Part shown: in pieces, positions 1 to 30,642 of the stretch
How the letters are laid out: each line of letters begins with the position of its first letter
Numbering within the stretch: position 1 is the stretch's first letter
Origin: a bacterium
GTDB lineage: Bacteria; Patescibacteriota; Gracilibacteria; BD1-5; UBA6164
Assembly: GCA_024635485.1 (NCBI GenBank)
Contig: JAGXIV010000001.1
Coordinates: 1 to 32,964 of the forward strand
DNA length: 32,964 bases
Direction: 5' to 3'
Program-made: the position numbers and the translations under genes
Notes under the pieces: model-generated
Seen by the model: only the letters and a program-made list of their open reading frames with translations
Databases searched by the model: none
Told to the model about the DNA's origin: nothing

Positions 1-1012
1 CATGTATAATATCATCTTTTTGATTCTTCGCCATTTTTATCCCTTCTTTTTTATGTTTTTTGAAAAGTTCTTTTATGATTTGTGGAGTGAGTGTTTCACC
101 AGAACGTCTATAATAAAAATACATCACATAGATTTTTCATAATGCGTAGGAAACCCCAAAACTAATAGGTGCAAAAATATATCCTCAAAATCCAGGTAAT
201 AATATTTTAATAGCTGTTCCAGCTCATTGGAGTGCTAAAAATGAAACTCATAGTGGAGTAATAAGCTCTGCAAATATTTTAGAACTCTCTTTGAGATTCA
301 CTTCCATTTCAAATCTTTCTGAAATTTTGAGAATCATATAGAGATGTACCGCAATCAGATTGAGATTTTCTAAAAATGGAATAGGTTGTACTGACAATAT
401 TGCCGCGACACATGAAGACTTAAAAATAATATCATCACAATCTTGTATGTGGATATCCCCCATCATATGGAGGCTATCAATTTCTTCTTGGGGTATAGGT
501 CACAGTGAATACACCGGAACCTTTTCTAATATGCCATGAAATGCAAAGTCTCCCACAAACTTAGTAAGCACTGCACTTGGAAGCTCATTATATACTTCTC
601 TCGAACAAAATATCTTAGAAACAGGAGTAATATCCATTATTCTTGAGCCTAAATTTATCGATTCACCAAAATAATCTTGCAAATGTAAGCTCTCATGTTC
701 GCTAATATGACCATAGCTTATAGTTACTCTGAGAGATATTTTTTTGAGATCAATTTTTTTTTGTGCATCAATTTTGAGTGAATTTTTGAGTATTTCCTGA
801 GAAAATAACACGGCATCATTTACATTATCAGCAAGTGCTAAATAGGCATCTCAAATACTCTTTACCAGTTTAATTGAGTGAGTCTCTGCTGAATCCACTG
901 TTATAGCCTCAAAACTGTCTAAAATCTCATGAATCTGTGAGTCAGTGAGGAGTGAATTTTTATAGGTAAAATTCTTAAGATCAGCGAATATAATAAATTT
1001 TTTGTTTTCCAT
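1..1012 (-). CDS. Class III adenylate/guanylate cyclase-domain protein with DUF697-like C-terminus (partial)
   Basis: Runs off the left edge; 337 codons are visible from ATG 1012. The N-terminal ~185 residues look like a class III nucleotidyl cyclase. Residues 9-16 (FADLKNFT) give metal ligand D11, KSIGDAY gives D55 (G54 is UGA), and INLGSR at 119-124 matches the Asn/Arg transition-state motif. The family makes cAMP or cGMP; substrate cannot be told here. Residues ~195-290 (PIPFLENLNLIAVHLYMILK, then glycine-rich hydrophobic stretches and YALGKIYVMYFYY) resemble DUF697, a membrane-associated domain usually attached to GTPases. That assignment is by eye and less certain. The tail is Lys-rich. 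UGA codes Gly at several C-terminal positions, and no TAA/TAG occurs before the edge. It ends upstream in the same direction as uvrB. A degenerate or non-catalytic cyclase-like domain remains possible. Confidence 0.75.
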
Positions 1013-1053: not shown

Positions 1054-3200
1054 TTATCTTCTTTTTCAGGTTTTTTTTGAGTTTTTGAGTTCGAGAATTT
1101 CATCCCGCAGTCAGGCTGCTTTTTCATACTCCATATTTGCAGAAGCGATATCCATCTCAAGTTCCAGTCTTTTTATTTCTTTTGGAATTGCTTTAGGATC
1201 TCCACTCAGCTCTCTTTTTTTCTTATTACTCGCTATTCCTATATCTTTAATAGAGCTATAAACTGTCTGAGGATCCATCCCAATTTTTTCGTTATGAGCT
1301 TGTTGAATAGACCGTCGATATATAGTGAGATCTATCGCCTTTTTCATAGCTTGAGAAATAACAAGACCTTGATTGTTGATAAATTTCCCAGCATTGAGAA
1401 TACGCAGATGCGCATCAAATTTTTCAAATTCTTCTTTTTTTACATCATAGTTTCGTATTTGTTCGACATACATAGTAACGACTCCGTTGACGTTTCTCGC
1501 AGCTCGACCAATAATCTGTATCAGCGCTGACTCACTTCGTAAAAATCACTGTTTATCTGCATCTAAAATCGCAATTTTGGATACTTCAGGGAGATCAAGT
1601 CCCTCTCTGAGAAGATTAACTCAAACAATAACATCGATTTTTCCTTCTCGAAGTTCTTTGAGTATTTCAAGTCTTTCAAGTGTATCTACTTCCGAGTGCA
1701 AATACTGTACTTTGATTCCATTTTCTATGAGATATTCTGTGAGTTCTTCACTACTCTTTTTTGTGAGAGTCGTTATAAGCATTCGTTCTCCTGACTTGAT
1801 AACGCTTTGTAAACTTTCCATAATATCATCTACCATAAAATCCATAGCTTTTACCGTGATATTTGGATCAAGAAGTCCTGTAGGACGTATCATCTGTGGA
1901 ACAATTCGCTTATCGTCATCTGAAGCCCAAATTTCTCATGAAGCTGGTTCAAATTCATAGAATTCTTCTGCTCGCTTTGGTGTTTTTGAACTCGCTAAAA
2001 TTTCATACTTTCATGGAGTTGCAGAAACAGCAATAACTTGTCCAAGCTTTTGTTCAAATTCAGTAAAACGAAGAGGTCTATTATCCATCGCAGATGGCAA
2101 TCTAAATCCATTTTCCACAAGATTTTCTTTTCTACTTCTATCACCAGCGTACATCCCTCCTACTTGAGGAATCGTCATATGAGATTCATCTATAAAAGTA
2201 ATAAAGTCTTTCCCAAAATAATCAATCAGCGTTTGAGCTGGATCTCAAGGATTTCTTCCATCTAAATAACGTGAATAGTTCTCAATCCCATTCACATATC
2301 CTACTTCTTGCATCATCTCAATATCATATTCTACTTTTGCTTTGAGACGTTCGTATTTCACGACTTGGTGGGTTTCTTCAAAATATGCAAGTCTTTCATC
2401 AAGATCTTTTTGAATTTGCGGAATAACTCTTTCTAAGGTACCAGCAGAAGTCACCGTATGTTTTGCAGGAAATATTTCAATTGATTGATGTGTTTCATAT
2501 ACTTGGCCTGAAATAGGATGTCGCGAAGAGATTTGAGATACTTCGTCTCCCCAAAACTCAATAGTATAGACAAACTCTTTACTTGCTGGCCATATCTCAA
2601 GAATATCTCCAGATACAATAAAATTCCCAGAACCAAAATCAGCTCCAGCTCGAGTAAATTGGATAGAAACAAGTTTTTTTAATAGATCTTCAATGGCATA
2701 ACTTTCTCAGAGTTGTATTTGGAATATTTGGTCTACATAACTTGATATATCCCCTATTCCATAGATACAACTTACCGAAGCAACAATTATAACGTCCTTT
2801 CGTCTCAGTAAATCTTGTGTCGCAGCATGTCGCAGTCTATCTATTTCTTCATTAATGGTAGCTTCTTTTTCGATATAGGTATCCGTTTTTGAAACGTAGG
2901 CTTCAGGTTGATAATAATCATAATAGGATACAAAATAATGGACCGCAGAGTCAGGAAAAAACTCTTTAAATTCTTGCGCTAGTTGAGCTGCAAGCGTCTT
3001 GTTATGAGCGAAATCAGCGCTGGTTTTTCCATTTGCTCTATGATATTAGCCATGGTAAAAGTCTTTCCACTTCAGGTTACCCCCCAGAGTGTTTGCCACT
3101 GATGTCCGTCATCTACATATTTTTTGAGAGACTTTATAGCCGAACCCTGATCTCAGGCTGGTGAATATTTACTTTTTAAGTGAAACAGTGGTGATGACAT
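1054..3200 (-). CDS. uvrB: Excinuclease ABC subunit B, UvrB, with apparent 1-nt frameshift
   Basis: DNA-damage-loading helicase subunit of UvrABC nucleotide excision repair. Start ATG 3200 gives [20 protein letters not shown], then Walker A GVTGSGKTFT (first Gly of the loop is UGA), the beta-hairpin region [18 protein letters not shown] (Walker B type), [21 protein letters not shown], and a C-terminal UVR motif (MEYEKAAGLRDEIL) that contacts UvrC. The span is 2147 nt, not a multiple of three. The frame shifts near 3008-3016, where KPALI must be followed by [12 protein letters not shown], which is the conserved sequence if one base is restored. As written, the upstream frame ends at TAG 2979-2981 after 73 codons. 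A ~30-residue insertion lies between MYVEQI and QAMKKAID (about 1355-1465), making the repaired protein ~715 aa against ~660-680 usual. Identity is certain; whether the lesion is real or a sequencing error is open. Confidence 0.93.
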
Positions 3201-6775: not shown

Positions 6776-7096
6776 TGTGAGAGTGTGAAAAGAGTAGTAA
6801 ATTGTATAAATATTGTATTAATTTTCAGAGATATGTAAAAATATATCTTGTAGTGTAAGAGTTTTTTTATATAATCCCTGTAGTTTTTAAGAAGAGTCTT
6901 ACAAGTGATATTTGTACAAAACTTTCTTCAAAAGCTATCTACGCGCGTTTATAGTAGCAAAAATACAAATTAAAGAGTAGCTTGTGAGTCTTCACAAAAT
7001 ACTCACCTTAGTCTCTCGACATGTTATTTATTTCAAATATACTTGTCTTATGCTGAAAAATATTTCACGCATTTATTTTTTAAATTTTGTAGAATT
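6776..7096. promoter_or_regulatory. Divergent intergenic region with candidate promoter for the SLH gene
   Basis: 321 bases without a convincing gene. A TATAAT at 6870-6875 with TTGTAG 16 bases upstream (6848-6853) on the plus strand is the best sigma-70-like candidate. It would give a 5' leader of ~215 bases for the SLH protein gene, and long leaders are common for abundant surface-layer genes. A GC-poor stretch with a short CTACGCGCG block at ~6939 lies within it. No tRNA, repeat array or riboswitch was recognised. Confidence 0.3.
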
Positions 7097-8119
7097 ATGA
7101 AAAATTCTAATACAATGCTTTCAAGAGGATTATCAGTAATAACTGTTATTGCTCTTGTATTTGCATTAAACGTATCTGGAGCTCTTGCGGGTTTCTGGAG
7201 AACATTTGATGGTATGTCGGATTCTGGAGTTATGAATCCAAGTGAATTCCTCTATGGATATGGAACTGATAACAATTCTTATGGATATGGTTTTGGTTAT
7301 GGTTACGGAAATGGTGACTTCGATGCTGGTTACATCGTAACTGATGTAAATGGTAATACTATCGCTACTGGTTCTGCTGGTGGTACTGGTGGTTCAACTG
7401 GATCAGGAACAACTGGAGACACTACTGGTGGAGATACTAGTGGTGGAACAACTGGTGGATGATCTAACGGAGGAACTACTGGTGGAAACACAGGTGGTAC
7501 GACTGGTGACAGTGATACTACAGTAGATGAAGATGTTGATGGTGAAGTGGTAGTTATCGATACTGATGGAACTGCTCCTTTCTGTGATACAGGTCTTACA
7601 TTTGCTTCTTCGTATATCGATACTCTCTATAATCTTGGTATTGTAGTTGGTTACGATGGTACATGTGAATTTAGACCAGAAAATCCTATTACTCGAGCAG
7701 AATTCTTGAAAATAGCGCTTCGATCATTTGGTCAAGCTTATACTTCAGAAGATGCTGTATATGAAACATTCCCAGATGTAGAAAATGGTACTTGGGTGGC
7801 TAACGCTGTTGGTCGAGCTATGTTCCTTGGACTAGTTGATGGAAATGATGGTATGTTCTACCCAAATGCTTATATCACAAGAGGTGAAGCTATGAAAATA
7901 CTTATCAATACTGCTGAAATAGCGGTTGACGATAATATCGTAACTTCTTCATCATTCTCTGATGTATCAGGATGGGCTGCTAAATACGTTGAAGCTGCGA
8001 GAGATTTAGATATTATCTCTGCAAATGAACTATTTAGACCTATGGATAGCATTACTCGAGCTGAAACTTCAAAAATCGCTGTACGAGGTATTGCTGTAGT
8101 TTCTACTATAAACAATTAA
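7097..8119 (+). CDS. Secreted Gly/Thr-rich surface protein with three SLH domains
   Basis: 340 aa. ATG 7097 gives a signal peptide (MKNSNTMLSRGLSVITVIAL to ALA at residue 31). An in-frame ATG at 7043 would put 18 residues ahead of it and is less likely. Then come a Tyr/Gly patch (YGYGFGYGYGNG), a Gly/Thr/Ser linker (~95-145) and three S-layer homology domains: ~162-210 (ITRAEFLKIALRSF), ~216-262 (FPDVENGTW to ITRGEAMKILI) and ~277-330 (FSDVSGWA to ITRAETSKIAV). SLH domains bind secondary cell-wall polysaccharide, so this is probably a surface-layer or sheath component displayed on the glycan made by the downstream cluster. Only one glycine, at 7462-7464 in the linker, is UGA; about 51 others are GGN. 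That suggests high expression with UGA avoidance. Confidence 0.93.
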
Positions 8120-8860: not shown

Positions 8861-9811
8861 ATGGCAAAAAATAAGCAACTCATTTCACTCGTAATTCCTG
8901 TATTTAAAGAAGAAAAAAATATTCCTCTATTTTATATTGAAGTAAAAAAAATTTTAAAAAATATTACATCATATAATTTTGAAATAATATTTATAAATGA
9001 CTGAAGTCCAGATTCATCGTGGTATGAAATCGAAAAACTCTGTATTCTCGATACTGATGTTAAGTGAATTAATCTGAGTCGTAATTTTGGAAAAGAGGTT
9101 GCAATGACTGCTGGTATTGAACATGCGAAGGGTGAGGCTGTTATTACGCTTGATGGAGATGGACAACATCCAGTAGAGCAAATACCTAACTTTATCCAAG
9201 AATGGGAAGCTTGATATCAAATAGTGTACAATGTTCGTCCAAATATTGCGTGAGCAAATGTACTAAAAAAACTTTCATCTCAACTCTTTTATAAAGTATT
9301 TAATGCTATCTCAGAGTTTGAATTTGAGGATAGAACTACTGATTATCGACTCTTAGACAGAGTTGTTGTAAACTATTTTCTAAAATTTTCTGAGCGAAAC
9401 AGACTCTATAGAGGTATCATCGACTGGCTTGGATTTGATAAAAAAGCTCTTGTTTTTGATGCTCGAGAACGACTTGATAATGGAGACTCAAGTTATAGTT
9501 ATAAGAAGCTCTGGACTCTCGCTATTAACTCTCTTACCTCATTTAGTATCTTCCCTCTCCGTCTTGTTTGATACTTTGGGTTTTTTATGACTCTTATATC
9601 ATCAATACTTTTTGTATTTGTAATAATTGATAAATTTACAATAAATCGTTTTTACTTTTCAAATATTGCTGCATTACTTCTTATAAATTCTGCACTGATT
9701 TGAATAGTTTTGATGGCTCTCTGACTTATAGCCCTCTATATCGCACGAATCCATGAAGAAGTTCAAGGAAGACCTATGTATATAATTAAGGATTGTAAAA
9801 ATATAAAATAA
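8861..9811 (+). CDS. Polyprenyl-phosphate-type glycosyltransferase family 2 (DPM1/GtrB-like)
   Basis: 316 aa from ATG 8861. The N-terminal GT-A domain has SLVIPVFKEEKNI, FINDGSPDSS (Gly is UGA), LSRNFGKEVAMTAGI and the metal-binding TLDGDGQHP. Two membrane helices follow near the C-terminus (~232-256 and ~268-293), and the protein ends in the RIHEEVQGRPMYII signature typical of the GtrB/ArnC/YkoT group. These enzymes usually load a sugar onto undecaprenyl phosphate at the cytoplasmic face. It is the first gene of the polysaccharide cluster, and the next ATG is four bases after its stop. The sugar donor cannot be told from sequence. Confidence 0.92.
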
Positions 9812-9815
9812 AGTT

Positions 9816-11015
9816 ATGAAAATTGTACACATATCACTCTATCCTCCGAAATGACAAATACACTGTAATAAAAGCTGAGTAGCTCCTTATACTAAAAATC
9901 TCGCAATGAATATTCCCTATTCTTGAAAAGATAAGGTGTATATTATTGGAGATATTGATCAAAGGACAGAAACATATCAAGAACAAAATATCGAAGTACG
10001 GAAAGTATTTTCAAAATGAGTTTTTTTTTATAAAAATATTCTTAAAGAAATTGATAGTATCAAACCTGATGTTGTTCATATTCAACAGGAGTTAGCTCTC
10101 TATTGAAATATACTCAGCGCTATTACACTGAGATTTTTACTCATGGCTCTAAAAAAAAGAAATATAAAAACAGTTATTACTTTTCATGGGATTGTTGATG
10201 TAGTGAGCATAGATGAAGAATTTATGAAAGAAAATTTCTCAGCACTTCCTATATTTATGGTAAAATTCGCTTTTAAGTTTATTTTTAATCCTCTTATACA
10301 ATATTCTGATGAAATAATAGTTCATGAAGACCTTTTTAAAAAGAGAATTTTAGAACAATATTATAAAAAAAATTCTGATGATATACATGTGATACATCAT
10401 GGAATTGAAGATTTTTCTTCAGAAATAATTTCTCAAGAAGATGCAAGAAATACACTATGAATATCACAACAAAAAAAAGTATTCCTTTTCATGTGATTCA
10501 TAACTGGATACAAATGAATAGATTTACTCATCGATTGAGTCGCAAAATACAAGCAGGAAAATGATGATGATTTTATTCTCTACATACTTTGAGCGCATCA
10601 CCCAAAACTTAAAGATGATGAAAACTATAAAAATGAATATTCAAGACTCAAAAATAAAGCTCTTACACAACTCTGAGACAATGTAGATTGGCAAGAGTGA
10701 TTTGTAGATGCTGCTAAAATGGCACTCTACTATCCTGCAAGTGATGTCGTTCTCTTCCCATATACTCGAAGTATTTCATCAAGTGGACCTATGGCTCTCT
10801 CTATTTGATACAATGTACCTTTTCTTGCAAGTGATGTATTTACTGAAAGTATTGATGATGAGAATCTTCTCTTTGAAAAGTCTCCAGATTGACTCAGTAA
10901 AAAACTTAGATTTTTCTTTGAGCATCAAGATGAATATGCTCAAATTATTTCAAAAATGAGAAATGAAAGATTATGGACAGAAATAGGAAAAGAAACTTAT
11001 AAAATATATATTTAA
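9816..11015 (+). CDS. Glycosyltransferase, GT-B fold (family 4-like)
   Basis: 399 aa from ATG 9816. The Rossmann-like N-terminus (MKIVHISLYPPKGQIHCN) is followed by a donor-acceptor loop (SGVAPYTKNLA), KPDVVHIQQELALYG, HVIHHGIED, the second-domain start VFLFMGFITGYKGIDLLID, and the donor-site region LYYPASDVVLFPYTRSISSS with GPMALSIGYNVPFLAS. The canonical E-x7-E is weakly represented by the SGPMALS stretch. UGA supplies many glycines. It overlaps no neighbour but is packed between two other glycosyltransferases (4 and 2 bases). It probably adds an internal residue to the lipid-linked repeat unit. Confidence 0.9.
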
Positions 11016-13978: not shown

Positions 13979-16051
13979 ATGTATATCCAAATTATTTTTT
14001 TGGCAATAATTTTTCTCATTTTTTTTAATCTGACTCCATCCTGATGAGATGCTGTATTTCCAATTGTATGAAACTCATTTAAATTAGTTGAAAATTCATA
14101 TCTATTTATTTGGAGTGATTGAATTTTATGATCAGTCAATATGCTAAATAATATAAGATGATTATTACCATTCATTACTTCAAACCTCAACCTCTTTAAT
14201 TTTAATTTTTATTTATTTATTATTTGATATTTGGGTTGGCTTTTAACCTATCTATCTTTAAAAAAGTTATTCTCTATAAATGACAATAAGTGATGTATTT
14301 TTATGGCAATTTTGTCACTGTTTTTTATAGTAAATCCTATTACAGTTTGACAATATTGACATTATCTAATATTACAATGATTTTTTCTATACATATTTAT
14401 AATTGTAATGTACTATTACTATTTAATTGATCCAAAAAAAAATTATTTATATTGATTGTTTTTTTGTTTAGCACTTCCTTTCTTATGACAACCTCATAAT
14501 TATTATAATATAATTTTATTATGTATATTTTTATGAATTTTCACATTATATTACAAAAAGATAAAATTTAAAGAATATCTTATAAAAAATTTTAATATTT
14601 TATTTTTAGTATTACTAATTTTTTCAGGTTCTATTTTTTTATTTTTTAGTACTATACCAAACGATTTAACCTCTTCAATCTCATGATTTGATTGATGAGA
14701 ACCTAATATGGTTTGGAGTTGATATCAATGAATAATTAATACCTTTACTTTCAAGAAATCTAGTTTTTGAGGTTATAATTATTTATTAACAATATTTTTC
14801 TCAATTAATGTATATTTATTCTTTGTTATTATTTTTAACTTAAATAAAAGAGAAAATAAATTTTGGTATATCGTATTTTGTATATTAATATCATTATCAT
14901 TTATTTGAAATAATCCATTACTTCAAAATAATAGTTTAAAGTTTTATATATATAAATTTATTCCTCATTTAAGAGTTGATGTATCATATTTATTATTAAT
15001 AATTATTCCTTTATTTATTTTATGAATAGCATACATTTATAAAAATAAAAAAATCTCTCAAACTTTGATTTGTATACTTTTAATTGTTCAAATTTCTATA
15101 TCAACATTTCTATTGTTTGAAAGAAATAATCAAGAGAAAAATTCAATTAATATTAATGAATACTCAAATTTTCAGAATTTTATTAACAGTAAATTAGCCA
15201 CTAATAATGGATTTAGCACTGTTTTATTTTGGCCTTTATGAGTAACTTATAATCTACCTTGAATTGAACAATCAATTTATCCTACTCTTGTCACTTCTCA
15301 GTTTGAAAACAAAGATTTATTGCATTGGAATTTTTTAGAAATTGCACTTTCAGACACTTGAAAATTTATAAGTAATAATATAAACTCTGAAAAAAATAAA
15401 CTTAATATAGAAAATACTACAATTAATTACATTGTATGCTTCAATAAAATAATTAATTGTAATTGATTAATTAAATTGAATAAATTCGATATTATTTGAA
15501 TTTATAAAGATATATTCATATTTGAAAGAAATATTAAAACTCCTTTAATTCTTTCAAAAAATGCTAATTTTTCAAAAATAAACCCAACGAGTTACAAAAT
15601 AAACTTAAACTTAGGTTGAAAAAATAATGATTTATACTTTTTAGAATCTTTTCATCCAAATTGGAAAATATACTTAGAACCGTTCAAAAAAAATAACTGT
15701 AATGAAAAATACTCTTACTATTTAGCTAAATACAATGTTACAGAATGTTGAATGAAATCTAATTTATTTAGTTGATGAGATATACTTAAATTAATTCAAA
15801 AACCTGTATTTGATGAAAGTCATCAAAAAGTTTTTGATTATGCAAATAAATGGACAATTGATAAAGAGTTTATCATAAAAAATTATTCTAAAGAATATTA
15901 TAGAATTAATCAAGATTGAAGTATTGATATACTTTTAAGTATGTATTTTAAACCTCAAAGCTATTTTTATTTATGAATATTGTTAACTTGAATTACAATG
16001 TTATTAATTATGTGATTTTTAATATTTTCTAAAATTAAAAAATTTAAATAA
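13979..16051 (+). CDS. Polytopic GT-C-like membrane protein
   Basis: 690 aa from ATG 13979 to TAA 16049-16051. A first hydrophobic helix (IIFLAIIFLIFFNL) is followed by PSGDAVFPIVGNSF, an early extracytoplasmic acidic loop of the kind seen in GT-C enzymes. About a dozen membrane segments run to ~residue 385, then a large soluble region (~390-650), and a final helix (ILLTGITMLLIMGFLIF) with a basic tail. This shape resembles the arabinofuranosyltransferase/YfhO-like GT-C proteins that use polyprenyl-phosphate sugars outside the membrane; no family match is certain. Of 40 glycines I count 35 UGA and 5 GGN. Placed between a glycosyltransferase and rmlB, it may glycosylate or polymerise the exported unit. 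Confidence 0.75.
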
Positions 16052-17004
16052 TGATAATGAAACAAAAAATAATCATAACATGATGAGCTTGATTTATAGG
16101 ATCAAATTTTCTAAATACATATGTTTTAAAATTTCCAGAAATAGATTTTATTAATCTTGATGCTCTAACTTATGCTTGAAATCTAAAAAAGATAGATGAA
16201 TCAGTAAAAATATCTCCAAATTATTATTTTGAAAAAGTAGATATAACTGATATTGAAGCTTTAAAACAAATATATATAAAATATAAACCTACAGATATTA
16301 TTCATTTTGCAGCAGAGAGCCATGTGGATAACTCAATTAAAAATCCACTCTTATTTACACAAGTGAATATTATTGGGACACAAAACTTACTAGATTTGCA
16401 TAGAGAGTTTGAAATGGATAGATTTCATTATGTTTCTACTGATGAAGTATATGGAGACATACCAGATACAGGATATTTTACTGAAGAAACGCATTTAGAA
16501 CCATCATCACCCTACTCTGTCAGTAAAGCTGGATGAGATATGCTCACACAAGCTTATGGAAGAACATTTTGAATCAATTATAGTATTAGTAGATGTTCTA
16601 ATAATTATGGGAAAAATCAAAATTTCATATCTCTCATACCTTTATTTATTTCAAAAATACAAAAAAATGAACAAGTACCTTTGTATGGAGACGGAAGTAA
16701 TATACGTGACTGGCTCTATGTAGAGGATCATTGTGATGCTATTTGGCAAATATTTAGAGAATGAAAAAATGGATCCATTTATAACGTTGGTGGAAATAAT
16801 GAATATACAAATTTGGAAATTACAAAAATAATTCTCAGTGAACTCTGAAAAGATGATTCTCTCATAAGTTTTGTAGCAGATAGACCTGGACATGACCTAC
16901 GGTACGCAATAGATGCCTCAAAAATGAAAAAAGAACTCTGATGGGAACCAAAAGTTGCATTTCCTGAAGGAATCAAAAAAACTATTTGATATTATTCTCT
17001 CTAA
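16051..17004 (+). CDS. rmlB: dTDP-glucose 4,6-dehydratase
   Basis: Second enzyme of dTDP-L-rhamnose synthesis, an extended SDR. Residues 9-17 read IITGGAGFIGS, with three UGA glycines in the NAD loop. [31 protein letters not shown] (catalytic Asp-Glu), [10 protein letters not shown] (YxxxK), [22 protein letters not shown] and [12 protein letters not shown] follow. 317 aa from ATG 16051, which overlaps the previous TAA by one base (TAATG); ATG 16057 is an in-frame alternative. The first ~90 codons are AT-rich with UGA glycines like the upstream genes. Later codons use GGA/GGT and CTC more, so a recombination boundary may lie inside this gene. Confidence 0.97.
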
Positions 17005-17014
17005 TTACAATCAT

Positions 17015-17896
17015 ATGAAATGAATTATTCTTGCAGGAGGAAGTGGAACCAGACTCTACCCTATCACAAAAGCTATATCAAAACAACTCATGCCTATTTA
17101 TGATAAACCCATGATTTATTATCCCCTATCAGTGCTTATGATAGCTGGGATACAAGACATACTAATCATTACAACTCATGAAGATCAAAGTGGATTTGTG
17201 AGATTATTATGAGATGGAAGTCAATGGTGAATATCAATTTGTTATGAAATCCAACCTAGTCCAGATGGTCTGGCTCAGGCATTTATAATCTGAGAAGATT
17301 TTATATGAAGTGATGATGTTTGTCTCGTCCTGTGAGATAATCTGTTTTATGGAACTGGATTCTCAAAACTCTTACATTCAAGTATTCAAAAAGTACAGGA
17401 AGAAAAAAGCTCTGTCGTATTTTGATACGAAGTTTCTGATCCAGAAAGATATGGAGTGGTTGAATTTGATAATCAAATGAACGCTCTTTCCATCGAAGAA
17501 AAACCAAAAAATCCAAAAAGTAATTTCGCGGTAGTTTGACTCTATTTTTATACAAATGACGTAGTACAAATAGCAAAAGATATCAAACCGAGTGAACGAT
17601 GAGAACTTGAAATCACGAGCATAAATGAAGTATATTTAGCACGAAAAAAGTTAAAAGTAGAGGTTATGAATCGTGGTTATGCTTGGCTTGATACAGGTAC
17701 CCACGAAAGTATGCTTGAAGCAAGTAATTTTATAGAAATTATTGAAAAAAGGCAAGGTCTTAAAATATCTTGTCCTGAAGAAATAGCTTGGACGAATGCT
17801 TGGATTAGTGATGCTGAGTTAGAAGCATTAGCTCTCCCTCTTAAAAAGTCTAATTATTGAAAATATTTATTAAAAAGAATAGGAAAAAATGTTTAA
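17015..17896 (+). CDS. rmlA: Glucose-1-phosphate thymidylyltransferase
   Basis: 293 aa, first enzyme of the dTDP-L-rhamnose pathway (dTTP + glucose-1-phosphate to dTDP-glucose). Landmarks: [18 protein letters not shown] (Gly 3 is UGA), [82 protein letters not shown] and [15 protein letters not shown]. Start ATG 17015. The last 8 bases overlap the rmlC start in another frame, so the two are probably translationally coupled. Confidence 0.97.
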
Positions 17897-18446
17897 TTTC
17901 ACCAAAACTGACATTGATTGACTTATCATTGTGGAACCTCAAATTTTTTGAGACGAAAGATGATTTTTTATGGAAACATATTCAAAAAAAGAATTTCAAA
18001 ATGCAGGTATTGATTGTGACTTTGTACAAGATAATCATAGTAAATCTAAGGCTTGAGTATTACGAGGTTTACATTTTCAGACTCAAAATACGCAGGCTAA
18101 ACTAGTAAGAGTTATTTCATGAAGAGTATATGATGTAGCTGTAGATCTACGTAAAGATTCAAACTCCTATTGAAAATGGTTTGGTATAGTCTTATCTGCT
18201 GAGAATAAAAAGCAGTTATTTATCCCCCAGTGATTTGCACATGGTTTTGTAACCCTTGAAGATAACACTGAGTTTGTATATAAATGTGATAATTATTATA
18301 TGCCTGAGAATGAAGGAGGGATAATCTATAACGATAGTACACTCGCTATAGATTGGACACAACACTACAATGGTGAACTATTTATTTCAAAAAAAGATAC
18401 TGAAAATGTAAGTTTTGAAGAATTTGATACTCCTAATATATTTTAA
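17889..18446 (+). CDS. rmlC: dTDP-4-dehydrorhamnose 3,5-epimerase
   Basis: 185 aa cupin epimerase, third step of dTDP-L-rhamnose synthesis. Start ATG 17889 inside the end of rmlA. IVEPQIFGDERGFFMETYSK, DFVQDNHSKSKAGVLRGLHF (catalytic His), AKLVRVISGRVYDVAVDLR, FIPQGFAHGFVTL and YKCDNYYMPENEGGIIYND follow the family closely. UGA glycines occur in FGDERG, AGVLRG and SGRVYD. The stop is immediately followed by the rmlD ATG. Confidence 0.97.
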
Positions 18447-19298
18447 ATGAAACGCATACTCATTACAGGAGCTGCTTGAATGCTCGCACATGATTTTATG
18501 AAATATTATGTTTGAGATGATGAAATAATATCATTTTCAAGTGCAGAACTTGATATAACTAATTATAAAATGTTAGAAGAAACTATATCTAATTATATTC
18601 CTGATCTCATTATTAATTTTGCAGCTTACACCAAGGTGGATGATGCTGAAGATATTGGAACTAAAATGAATTTTGACGTCAATACTTTGTGAGTAAGCTA
18701 CCTTGCACAGTTAACAAAGAAATATAAATCTGATTTTATCACATTTTCAACTGACTATGTTTTTGATGGTTTGAGTAAAGCAGGATACACAGAAAATGAT
18801 ACTTGCAATCCCATAAATAATTATGGAATGGCAAAATACTTATGAGAAAAAATATCAATAAAAGAAAATGAACATACAATAATTATTAGAACGAGTTGGC
18901 TGTATGGTGGATGAAAGCAATATAAGAATTTTGTAAACACGATGCTACATCTCTCTTCAAATAAGCAAGAACTCACAGTTGTGAGTGATCAATATGGAAT
19001 TCCTACATCATGTAAAGACTTATGTCTCGCTCTCTATGAAATCATTTCCCATTTAGATATCTACAGAGCAAAAATATTTCATTTTTCAAATAGTGCTGAG
19101 TCTCCTATAAGTTGGTTTGATTTTACAGAAAAAATAATTCGGCTGAGTAATAGCTCATGTATAGTAATGCCCTGCAATTCTTCATTTTATAAGATGAAAG
19201 CTAAAAGACCTCAAAATAGTATGATCATAAATAATAGCAATATACAACTCCAAAATTGGATACCTGCTCTTGAAGAATATATTACTCAAAATTCATAA
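18447..19298 (+). CDS. rmlD: dTDP-4-dehydrorhamnose reductase
   Basis: 283 aa SDR-type reductase, the last step to dTDP-L-rhamnose. MKRILITGAAGMLAHDF is the nucleotide-binding start, with VINFAAYTKVDDAED-like spacing (here IINFAAYTKVDDAED). TFSTDYVFDG, NNYGMAKYLGEK (catalytic YxxxK), RTSWLYGGG and SDQYGIPTSCKDL follow. It begins directly after the rmlC TAA, and its own TAA is followed at once by the next ATG. This makes an unbroken rmlB-A-C-D set. Confidence 0.96.
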
Positions 19299-29659: not shown

Positions 29660-30580
29660 TTATCTCCCAAATAATTTATGAATAAATGATGTATGTCGTG
29701 AATTTACGTCTTCCGGTGAAATGATATTGGTAAAGTGTTGTTCTCCACAATTCAGACAAAAGTTTGCATGTTCATTGTTTCGGGTTTTACAGGTCCTACA
29801 TATTTTAGAATCTGTAATTTTTTGGCTTTCTGCTACATCCATAAATACCAGAATAGTAATAGAGGAAATAACAGCTAAGAGTACCGGACCTAGTAAAATA
29901 AGCAGAACACCAAAAATTTTACCTATAGCAGTAACGGGAACCATATCACCATAACCAACCGTAGACATAGTCACAAAGCCCCACCAGAGTGAAGCTGGTA
30001 TAGATGAAAAGTCTTTATTTACTGGAAATTCCACATAATATACAAAACTGGAAATAATAATAAGCAGAGAAATAAAAATACTAAAAATTGCTTTATATTC
30101 TTTATGATATTCACGTATCGTTTTTAAAAATCCAAGGGCTATTGGTGAATGAGTAGAAACCTCAAAAAGTCTCATAATTCGAAGGAGTCTGAGAACCTTG
30201 AGTATGGATAAACCAGAAAGACCAGAAAAAAAGAAGGTGAGAAAAAATGGAGCAAAAGATAGGAGGTCAATAATATTGAAGGACTTGAACGGAAAAAGAA
30301 ATTTTTCTTTTGAGCGTAATAATCTGTATAGATATTCAAGTAAAAATATAATTGAAACCACAGCATCAAGGAAAAATAAATGAATATACCAAGAAAGCGG
30401 AAGTCATTGAATTGTTTCTATAATTAAAACACTCACACTTAAAATGACACAGAGTATAATAAAATTATTCAATCTTCTGCCTAAATGACTATCAGGATCA
30501 TGAAAAATATTTTCATATTTATCTCTGTCATAGAAGGCTAAATCCTTCAGCACTTCGTATTCTAAAAGTCGTTTAAACAT
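29660..30580 (-). CDS. Voltage-gated-type potassium channel with C-terminal zinc ribbon
   Basis: 306 aa from ATG 30580. Six-helix plan: S1 ~39-60 (NNFIILCVILSVSVLIIE), S2 ~68-90, S3 ~105-122 (IIDLLSFAPFFLTFFF), S4 with spaced positives (LKVLRLLRIMRLFEV), S5 (AIFSIFISLLIIISSFVYYV), pore helix SLWWGFVTMS, filter TVGYGD, and S6 (IFGVLLILLGPVLLAVISS). The TVGYGD filter shows K+ selectivity. After S6 comes a double CxxC zinc ribbon (CRTCKTRNNEHANFCLNCGE), an uncommon cytoplasmic tail for this class. The N-terminal soluble segment (VLKDLAFYDRDKYENIFHD) is unrecognised. Probably transcribed alone: a promoter is visible upstream and a hairpin downstream. Confidence 0.93.
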
Positions 30581-30612
30581 AAAAAAACTGGAGATATATA
30601 ATATATAGCTTC

Positions 30613-30642
30613 AGTATAGCATATTCTCTCAGTGTTTTACAA
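30613..30642 (-). promoter_or_regulatory. Candidate extended -10 promoter of the channel gene
   Basis: On the minus strand TTGTAA (30642-30637), an 18-base spacer, and TATACT (30618-30613) preceded by TGC, the extended -10 form. It lies 33 bases upstream of the channel ATG and just past the end of the M48 peptidase gene. Confidence 0.5.

Follow-up and report, generated by a model that had tools for sequence, protein, structure and literature searches.

DUF697 (PF05128) is named as a domain of unknown function. Elsewhere it occurs behind Era-like or dynamin-like GTPases, partners from which it is hard to read what the module senses. The family also includes the YcjF-type proteins of the Enterobacteria, and ycjX-ycjF is linked to the phage-shock regulon. 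A pspF-ycjF deletion label is carried in a passage of PMC5596341. For the class III nucleotide cyclases, passages of PMC11606603 and PMC4821796 provide precedent for membrane parts that act as receptors, neither source dealing with DUF697 as far as these passages extend. No publication treating DUF697 and a cyclase together was found in the one library searched, from which preprints and most subscription papers were beyond reach.

The window analysed here is a stretch of 32,964 nucleotides from a member of the Gracilibacteria, and constitutes the whole of contig C38 of a 1.14 Mb assembly. At its first edge lies a gene in which a cyclase domain is followed by a DUF697 module. We consider the chances about even (a probability of roughly 0.5) that this fusion is an adenylyl cyclase whose DUF697 helical-hairpin module tunes or, at the least, localises it, with the resultant cAMP read by cyclic-nucleotide-binding (CNB) proteins. 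The gene and its parts are as follows, invariance referring to the 16-row alignment A1 described below:

2..1012, minus strand, cyclase-DUF697 fusion gene, 337 of its 370 codons in the window (genetic code 25)
500..1012, minus strand, class III nucleotide cyclase domain, residues 1-171 (Pfam match 7-145, AF2 fold match)
980..982, minus strand, D11, presumed metal ligand, invariant (16/16)
860..862, minus strand, K51, presumed adenine-selecting lysine, invariant (16/16)
848..850, minus strand, D55, presumed metal ligand, invariant (16/16)
674..676, minus strand, D113, presumed adenine-selecting aspartate, invariant (16/16)
653..655, minus strand, N120, presumed transition-state residue, invariant (16/16)
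641..643, minus strand, R124, presumed transition-state residue, invariant (16/16)
2..454, minus strand, DUF697 module, residues 187-337, predicted to form two helical hairpins, then the first part of a basic C-terminal helix
374..388, minus strand, QPxPF motif, residues 209-213, placed by prediction at the turn of hairpin 1, its Q, P, P and F invariant (16/16)
134..139, minus strand, GK pair, residues 292-293, in the ALGKIYVMYFYY stretch, invariant (16/16)
start of contig G000:C1, last 33 codons and stop of the fusion gene, putatively joined through a 17-base overlap

The reading frame, which includes six TGA codons, is intact only where TGA is read as glycine, and it is open at the contig edge. 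The C-terminus, which the earlier note had listed as missing and to be sought in adjacent sequence, was found at the start of contig C1 of the same assembly, where 17 bases repeat exactly the end of the window's reverse complement and are followed, in the same frame, by 33 codons and a stop. The full-length protein comprises 370 aa, as does the related protein L009. Contig C1 was reached by searching the window's own genome with the DUF4116-type gene (461 aa, 9413..10798) located downstream of the fusion gene in the closest relative (locus L086), which matched C1:126-1508. As the overlap, the frame, the total length and the gene order agree, we infer that C38 and C1 adjoin.

The N-terminal half had been read as a class III cyclase domain retaining the metal residues D11 and D55 and an Asn/Arg pair, and this holds throughout. 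Guanylate_cyc (PF00211) matches residues 7-145 of the window protein in Pfam (38.3 bits, E 1.4e-9, cut-off 21.9) and, when scanned singly, all 16 members of A1, which includes the window protein. Even at identities of 30-73% to the window protein, these relatives keep D11, D55, N120 and R124 without exception, along with K51 and D113, a pair that the earlier note does not list. D11 and D55 are taken to be the metal ligands, N120 and R124 the transition-state residues, and K51/D113 the ATP-type (purine) pair that selects adenine. The latter two residues align by phmmer with the lysine and aspartate of the adenylate cyclase chain 4p2m, presumably Rv1625c. As read from the sequence, the cyclase half is a complete ATP-type catalytic site. 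An AF2 model built on A1 (mean pLDDT 84.4, pTM 0.61) predicts a cyclase fold for residues 1-171, which match class III cyclases, the best being Ma1120 (4wp8_B; Z 23.7, 1.9 Å over 165 residues).

The earlier note had staked its reading on matches to both domain families, of which the cyclase is clear and DUF697 borderline in the window protein itself (17.3 bits against a cut-off of 27.7; E 0.0042, residues 201-257; E 0.0023 when its own genome is searched alone). Among the A1 members scanned singly, a DUF697 match at E<=1 is seen in 14 of the 16, the best at 6.6e-8. Six relatives exceed the cut-off, L019 reaches 32.9 bits, and the claimed module is upheld. The DUF697 assignment of the window protein is one that rests on its orthologues; judged by its own sequence, it would not qualify. 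A search of 341 genomes of the class with PF05128 gave ten matches at E<=0.001, six of them passing the cut-off, and comparison of their places with the both-halves search for relatives put all ten at the position of a fusion gene. The same threshold missed six of the 16 fusion genomes (the window's own, G376, G377, G378, G379 and G382), and divergent modules can therefore escape, so that absences in PF05128 searches are weak, including that across the phylum, where none of 273 sampled genomes, the window's own among them, matched at E<=0.001. Escherichia coli served among the positive controls of these searches, its DUF697 protein presumably being YcjF. Beyond the family match, the module retains Q, P, P, F, K, G, P, F, G, K and Y as invariant residues in its hairpins and F, G and K in its basic tail.

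Outside the window's family, the module is found with other partners. A tblastn search with L009 against 72,556 plasmid records returned one match (E 7e-7), restricted to the module, on a plasmid of Vibrio sp. THAF190c. The protein encoded there (L102) is a GTPase-DUF697 protein of 371 aa (MMR_HSR1 E 2e-8; DUF697 26.5 bits against the cut-off of 27.7), sharing 29% identity with L009 over 176 columns that run through the whole module into the tail (BLASTP E 2e-15, single comparison). A module profile (A2) was searched against a survey of ten genomes, 299 Pseudomonadota genomes (the phylum of Albitalea) and 198 Thermodesulfobacteriota genomes (the phylum of Desulfamplus), and matched in 28 of the 299 and three of the 198, respectively. 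A total of 33 module loci were read, including two from the ten-genome survey, one of which was found again in the Thermodesulfobacteriota search. A P-loop motif is present in the module frame of 12 of these 33 loci. The five best A2 matches all carry GKTGAGKS, in frames of 379-393 codons, approximating the cyclase fusion in size and order, and the profile also finds proteins far over the DUF697 cut-off, such as L116 (113.5 bits). Pfam scans of ten of the 33 loci identified a GTPase domain in three, TerB/DUF533 in three and DUF697 as the sole family in four. In the TerB/DUF533 loci (L120, L127 and L131) the module-like match lies behind that domain, which represents another partner of DUF697-type modules; two of the three are without a DUF697 match at 0.001.

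A cyclase profile built from A1 had no match at E<=10 in any of the 33 module loci outside the family, and as a control recovers all 44 of 44 loci with a known cyclase; conversely, the 43 cyclase loci other than the fusion gave no match to the module profile at E<=1, against 33 of 33 for the DUF697-type loci. The suspicion that this pairing is an uncommon architecture, to be settled by a survey of domain architectures, is thus confirmed for the loci surveyed (0/33 and 0/43). A tree of 49 modules places all 16 cyclase-DUF697 rows in one clade (100/100), and the 13 GTPase rows likewise form one group if ungrouped rows are set aside, on a backbone that is weak (46/40) and with long branches flagged. 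L133 was left out of the tree, as its best module frame is that of L119 and its own 251-codon frame is without a P-loop motif.

Within the Gracilibacteria, 23 of 353 genomes of the class match the window protein, of which 16 align over both halves, all in the window's family. Six genomes of a 286-genome phylum sample match, namely the window's own and five over the cyclase half only. The full-length fusion is thus present in 16 of the 48 family genomes, a count which fusions in incomplete assemblies may have escaped, and one of the 16 is a closed chromosome (28_42_T64, CP042461.1). An assembly chimera is ruled out, because the fusion is common to 16 genomes including this chromosome. The pairing, both of whose halves belong to known families, appears to be new and turned up in only one family of the Gracilibacteria among the genomes searched. 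An origin from phages or plasmids was also considered and rejected: no viral relatives were found in viral_contigs (query A1) or phages (query L009), and the plasmids gave one record, matched by the module only (queries L009 and the L018 module).

The C-terminal half had been described as a membrane module, of which the DUF697 part stands, the membrane part being a possibility. AF2 modelling of the L009 module alone (pLDDT 86.9, pTM 0.85) places helices at 2-22 and 26-47, with QPxPF at the turn, and at 54-85 and 89-117 around K83-G91, followed by basic helices; confidence falls to 62-68 at the turns. Foldseek comparison of this model with solved structures gave nothing below E 0.49, and a profile search of PDB sequences with the module nothing below E 0.062. 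The best VIA rows, of Mx and dynamin chains at Z <=5.0, fall inside the background for helical models and were not taken as a sign of kinship. Hydropathy peaks over 19 residues lie between 0.9 (the lowest value reported) and 1.8 for the modules of the 16 proteins, mostly below clear membrane helices such as those of the CHASE2 cyclase L001 from the same genome (2.2-2.75) and the single tails of the cyclases L004 and L005 from other Patescibacteria (about 2.9-3.2). The soluble cyclase part of L001 reaches 1.1-1.5, and some other membrane proteins have helices that score no higher than the module (1.6 in L025; 0.9-1.3 for parts of an ion channel encoded in the window). A clear transmembrane bundle is thus unsupported by hydropathy; membrane insertion is possible.

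On the preferred reading of a tuned or localised adenylyl cyclase, the product would be a 370-residue class III enzyme whose N-terminal half probably works as a homodimer that converts ATP to cAMP, the residues and the predicted fold being in hand. The C-terminal DUF697 module, homologous to that found behind GTPases and predicted to form two hairpins and a basic tail, would most likely lie against or in the cytoplasmic membrane and relay to the cyclase dimer the condition of that membrane or of a partner in it, so that cAMP rises or falls. The cyclase would stand in the place often taken elsewhere by the GTPase of the module, and its cAMP would most likely be read by small stand-alone CNB proteins, two of which are putatively linked to it in the same genome.

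The module may instead be a mere anchor that holds an unregulated adenylyl cyclase at the membrane, in the manner of the single-helix cyclase tails of other Patescibacteria. L004 and L005 carry one strong C-terminal membrane helix with no match to the module profile, and a related enzyme half exists alone in G383 of the same family (L024, about 175 aa, without the module), both of which are in keeping with a plain anchor. A passive part would not, however, be expected to keep invariant hairpin and tail residues at about 30% identity, and the hydropathy of the module is lower than that of the plain anchors of L004 and L005, so that we regard this explanation as unlikely, if still a serious contender. 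Less probable again is a soluble, dynamin-stalk-like unit for oligomerisation or scaffolding, which would assemble the cyclase into higher-order complexes with no lipid sensing. The overlap of the module's hydropathy with that of the soluble part of L001, the occurrence of DUF697 behind dynamin-like or Era-like GTPases, and the dynamin or Mx chains that make up five of the ten top structural rows (Z 4.1 to 5.0) would accord with such a unit; those Z values nevertheless lie within the helical-model background, and Foldseek gave no match below its E of 0.49.

Other candidate parts of a cAMP circuit are encoded elsewhere in the same genome:

L001 1246-3309 (contig G000:C20), second own-genome cyclase, 687 aa, CHASE2 (E 3.5e-37), membrane helices, then cyclase
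L084 3887-4318 (contig G000:C10), CNB protein, 144 aa, stand-alone, beside infB (IF-2 domains)
L085 3843-4250 (contig G000:C8), CNB protein, about 135 aa, stand-alone

Both CNB proteins have only the CNB domain in Pfam and keep the GE...R.A pattern, which we take to be the phosphate-binding cassette of CNB proteins and which is present in 11 of the 13 CNB loci examined, L076 and L089 being without a match. Class III cyclases are encoded in 44 and CNB domains in 46 of the 48 family genomes, and cAMP signalling, to judge by its genes, looks common in the family. The view that second messengers are rarely described in such tiny genomes may hold for the descriptions, but these counts do not bear out rarity in the family. 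As the fusion is found in 16 of the 48 genomes and CNB domains in 46, the CNB receptors are not tied to the fusion, and their presence in fusion-less genomes too makes the fusion one input among others.

In the CPR/Patescibacteria literature, the passages checked hold a single mention of adenylate cyclase genes, an adenylate cyclase gene cluster named in Saccharibacteria (PMC9040727). In PMC11809585, adenylate cyclase appears solely in the reference list. Term look-ups found cyclase, cyclic and second messenger nowhere in PMC11452946, and cyclase, cyclic and adenylate nowhere in PMC8406219. The near-universal presence of cAMP signalling parts in a small-genome family stands against this scarce mention, as far as these sources extend.

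The setting of the fusion gene begins with one upstream neighbour:

1054..3200, minus strand, uvrB, directly upstream of the fusion gene, 41 bases away

In all seven fusion genomes of the genus, uvrB is the gene immediately upstream, in the same orientation, and its copy in L086 has UvrB Pfam domains. It adjoins the fusion gene in divergent orientation in L044, lies downstream with one gene between in L042, and was not seen in the remaining seven fusion stretches. The window's own copy seems frame-shifted near its start, as residues 59-715 of the L086 protein map to the frame at 1057-3027 and residues 1-82 to 2955-3200. A DUF4116-type gene lies downstream in six of the seven genus members, the contig of the seventh ending. 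A patatin-like phospholipase gene is located directly behind the fusion gene, ahead of the DUF4116-type gene, in G376 (L086, 8648-9400) and in L035 (5304-6068), and so adjoins it in two of the six genus genomes with a visible downstream side. Members of one gene family (YceG by Pfam in L037) are directly upstream in L037, L038, L039 and L041. As the neighbourhood varies among the relatives, the setting does not fix the function. Elsewhere in the window, a protein that looks secreted and carries three stretches of S-layer homology (SLH E 3.4e-26) is encoded at 7043-8119. Four consecutive genes at 16051-19298 code for a dehydratase, a nucleotidyl transferase, a dTDP-sugar epimerase and RmlD (Pfam), presumably belonging to the dTDP-rhamnose pathway. 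The ion channel (29660-30622; Ion_trans E 1.4e-24) has a tail with a CxxC...CxxC pattern that reads as zinc-ribbon-like.

Two further explanations can be treated briefly. A catalytically dead cyclase domain, kept as a structural partner, is very improbable given that all six catalytic residues are invariant in 16 of 16 sequences, and nothing was found in its favour. Least probable is a Pycsar-type anti-phage system with a cyclic pyrimidine nucleotide product. In its favour, the cyclase is of class III with a weak PycC match (E 0.031, 11.4 bits, residues 5-59), PycTIR effectors have a CNB part to which the own-genome CNB proteins show a match, and PycC models pick up the CHASE2 cyclase at 5e-30, as is expected among related cyclases. 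On the other side, the invariant K51/D113 pair is presumably of the purine (ATP) type, the complete relative L009 is without a PADLOC hit, the own-genome CNB genes are on other contigs (C10 and C8) with only the CNB domain in Pfam, and no CNB, TIR or transmembrane effector was recognised beside the fusion, where the neighbouring genes are labelled only in part. Pycsar- or CBASS-type defence, which the class III cyclase, the CNB proteins and the adjoining patatin gene of G376 had brought into consideration, was set aside, the PADLOC match to PycC being at E 0.031 only and patatin adjoining in two of six genomes.

The cyclase partner would supply a simple quantitative read-out for a domain whose GTPase partners offer no easy one, in the form of cAMP output per minute under changing lipid, tension or partner-protein conditions. 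A wider proposal, that DUF697 is a general receptor of membrane-lipid state or stress serving various nucleotide enzymes, with the signal passed in the Gracilibacteria to cAMP and on to single-domain binders, is doubtful at present; it would give these presumably host-dependent bacteria a second-messenger circuit that is very small yet complete.

Among known systems, the mycobacterial class III adenylyl cyclases Ma1120 and Rv1900c (PF00211) resemble the cyclase half in fold and in their metal, purine and transition-state residues, at about 20% identity; in the fusion, unlike these, the attached part is a DUF697 module at the C-terminal end. Of the cyclases found beyond the family, the closest are L004 (1237-1998) and L005 (1120-2043) of other Patescibacteria, which share the order of enzyme followed by membrane part, but have in place of DUF697 one strong membrane helix near the C-terminus (hydropathy 3.17 and 2.87, respectively). 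The CHASE2 cyclase L001 shares both the catalytic family and the genome with the fusion; unlike the fusion, its cyclase is C-terminal, behind CHASE2 and strong membrane helices (2.2-2.75). PycC belongs to the same class III cyclase superfamily, from which the fusion is set apart by its ATP-type K/D pair, a match at E 0.031 only and no adjacent effector recognised. The YcjF-type proteins of the Enterobacteria share the DUF697 family, but not the cyclase. The GTPase-DUF697 protein L102 has a C-terminal module homologous to that of L009, in the same place and in a protein of nearly equal total length. In such proteins the N-terminal half is a GTPase, no GTPase family being identified in Pfam scans of the window protein and the A1 members, while in the fusion of the Gracilibacteria this half is a cyclase.
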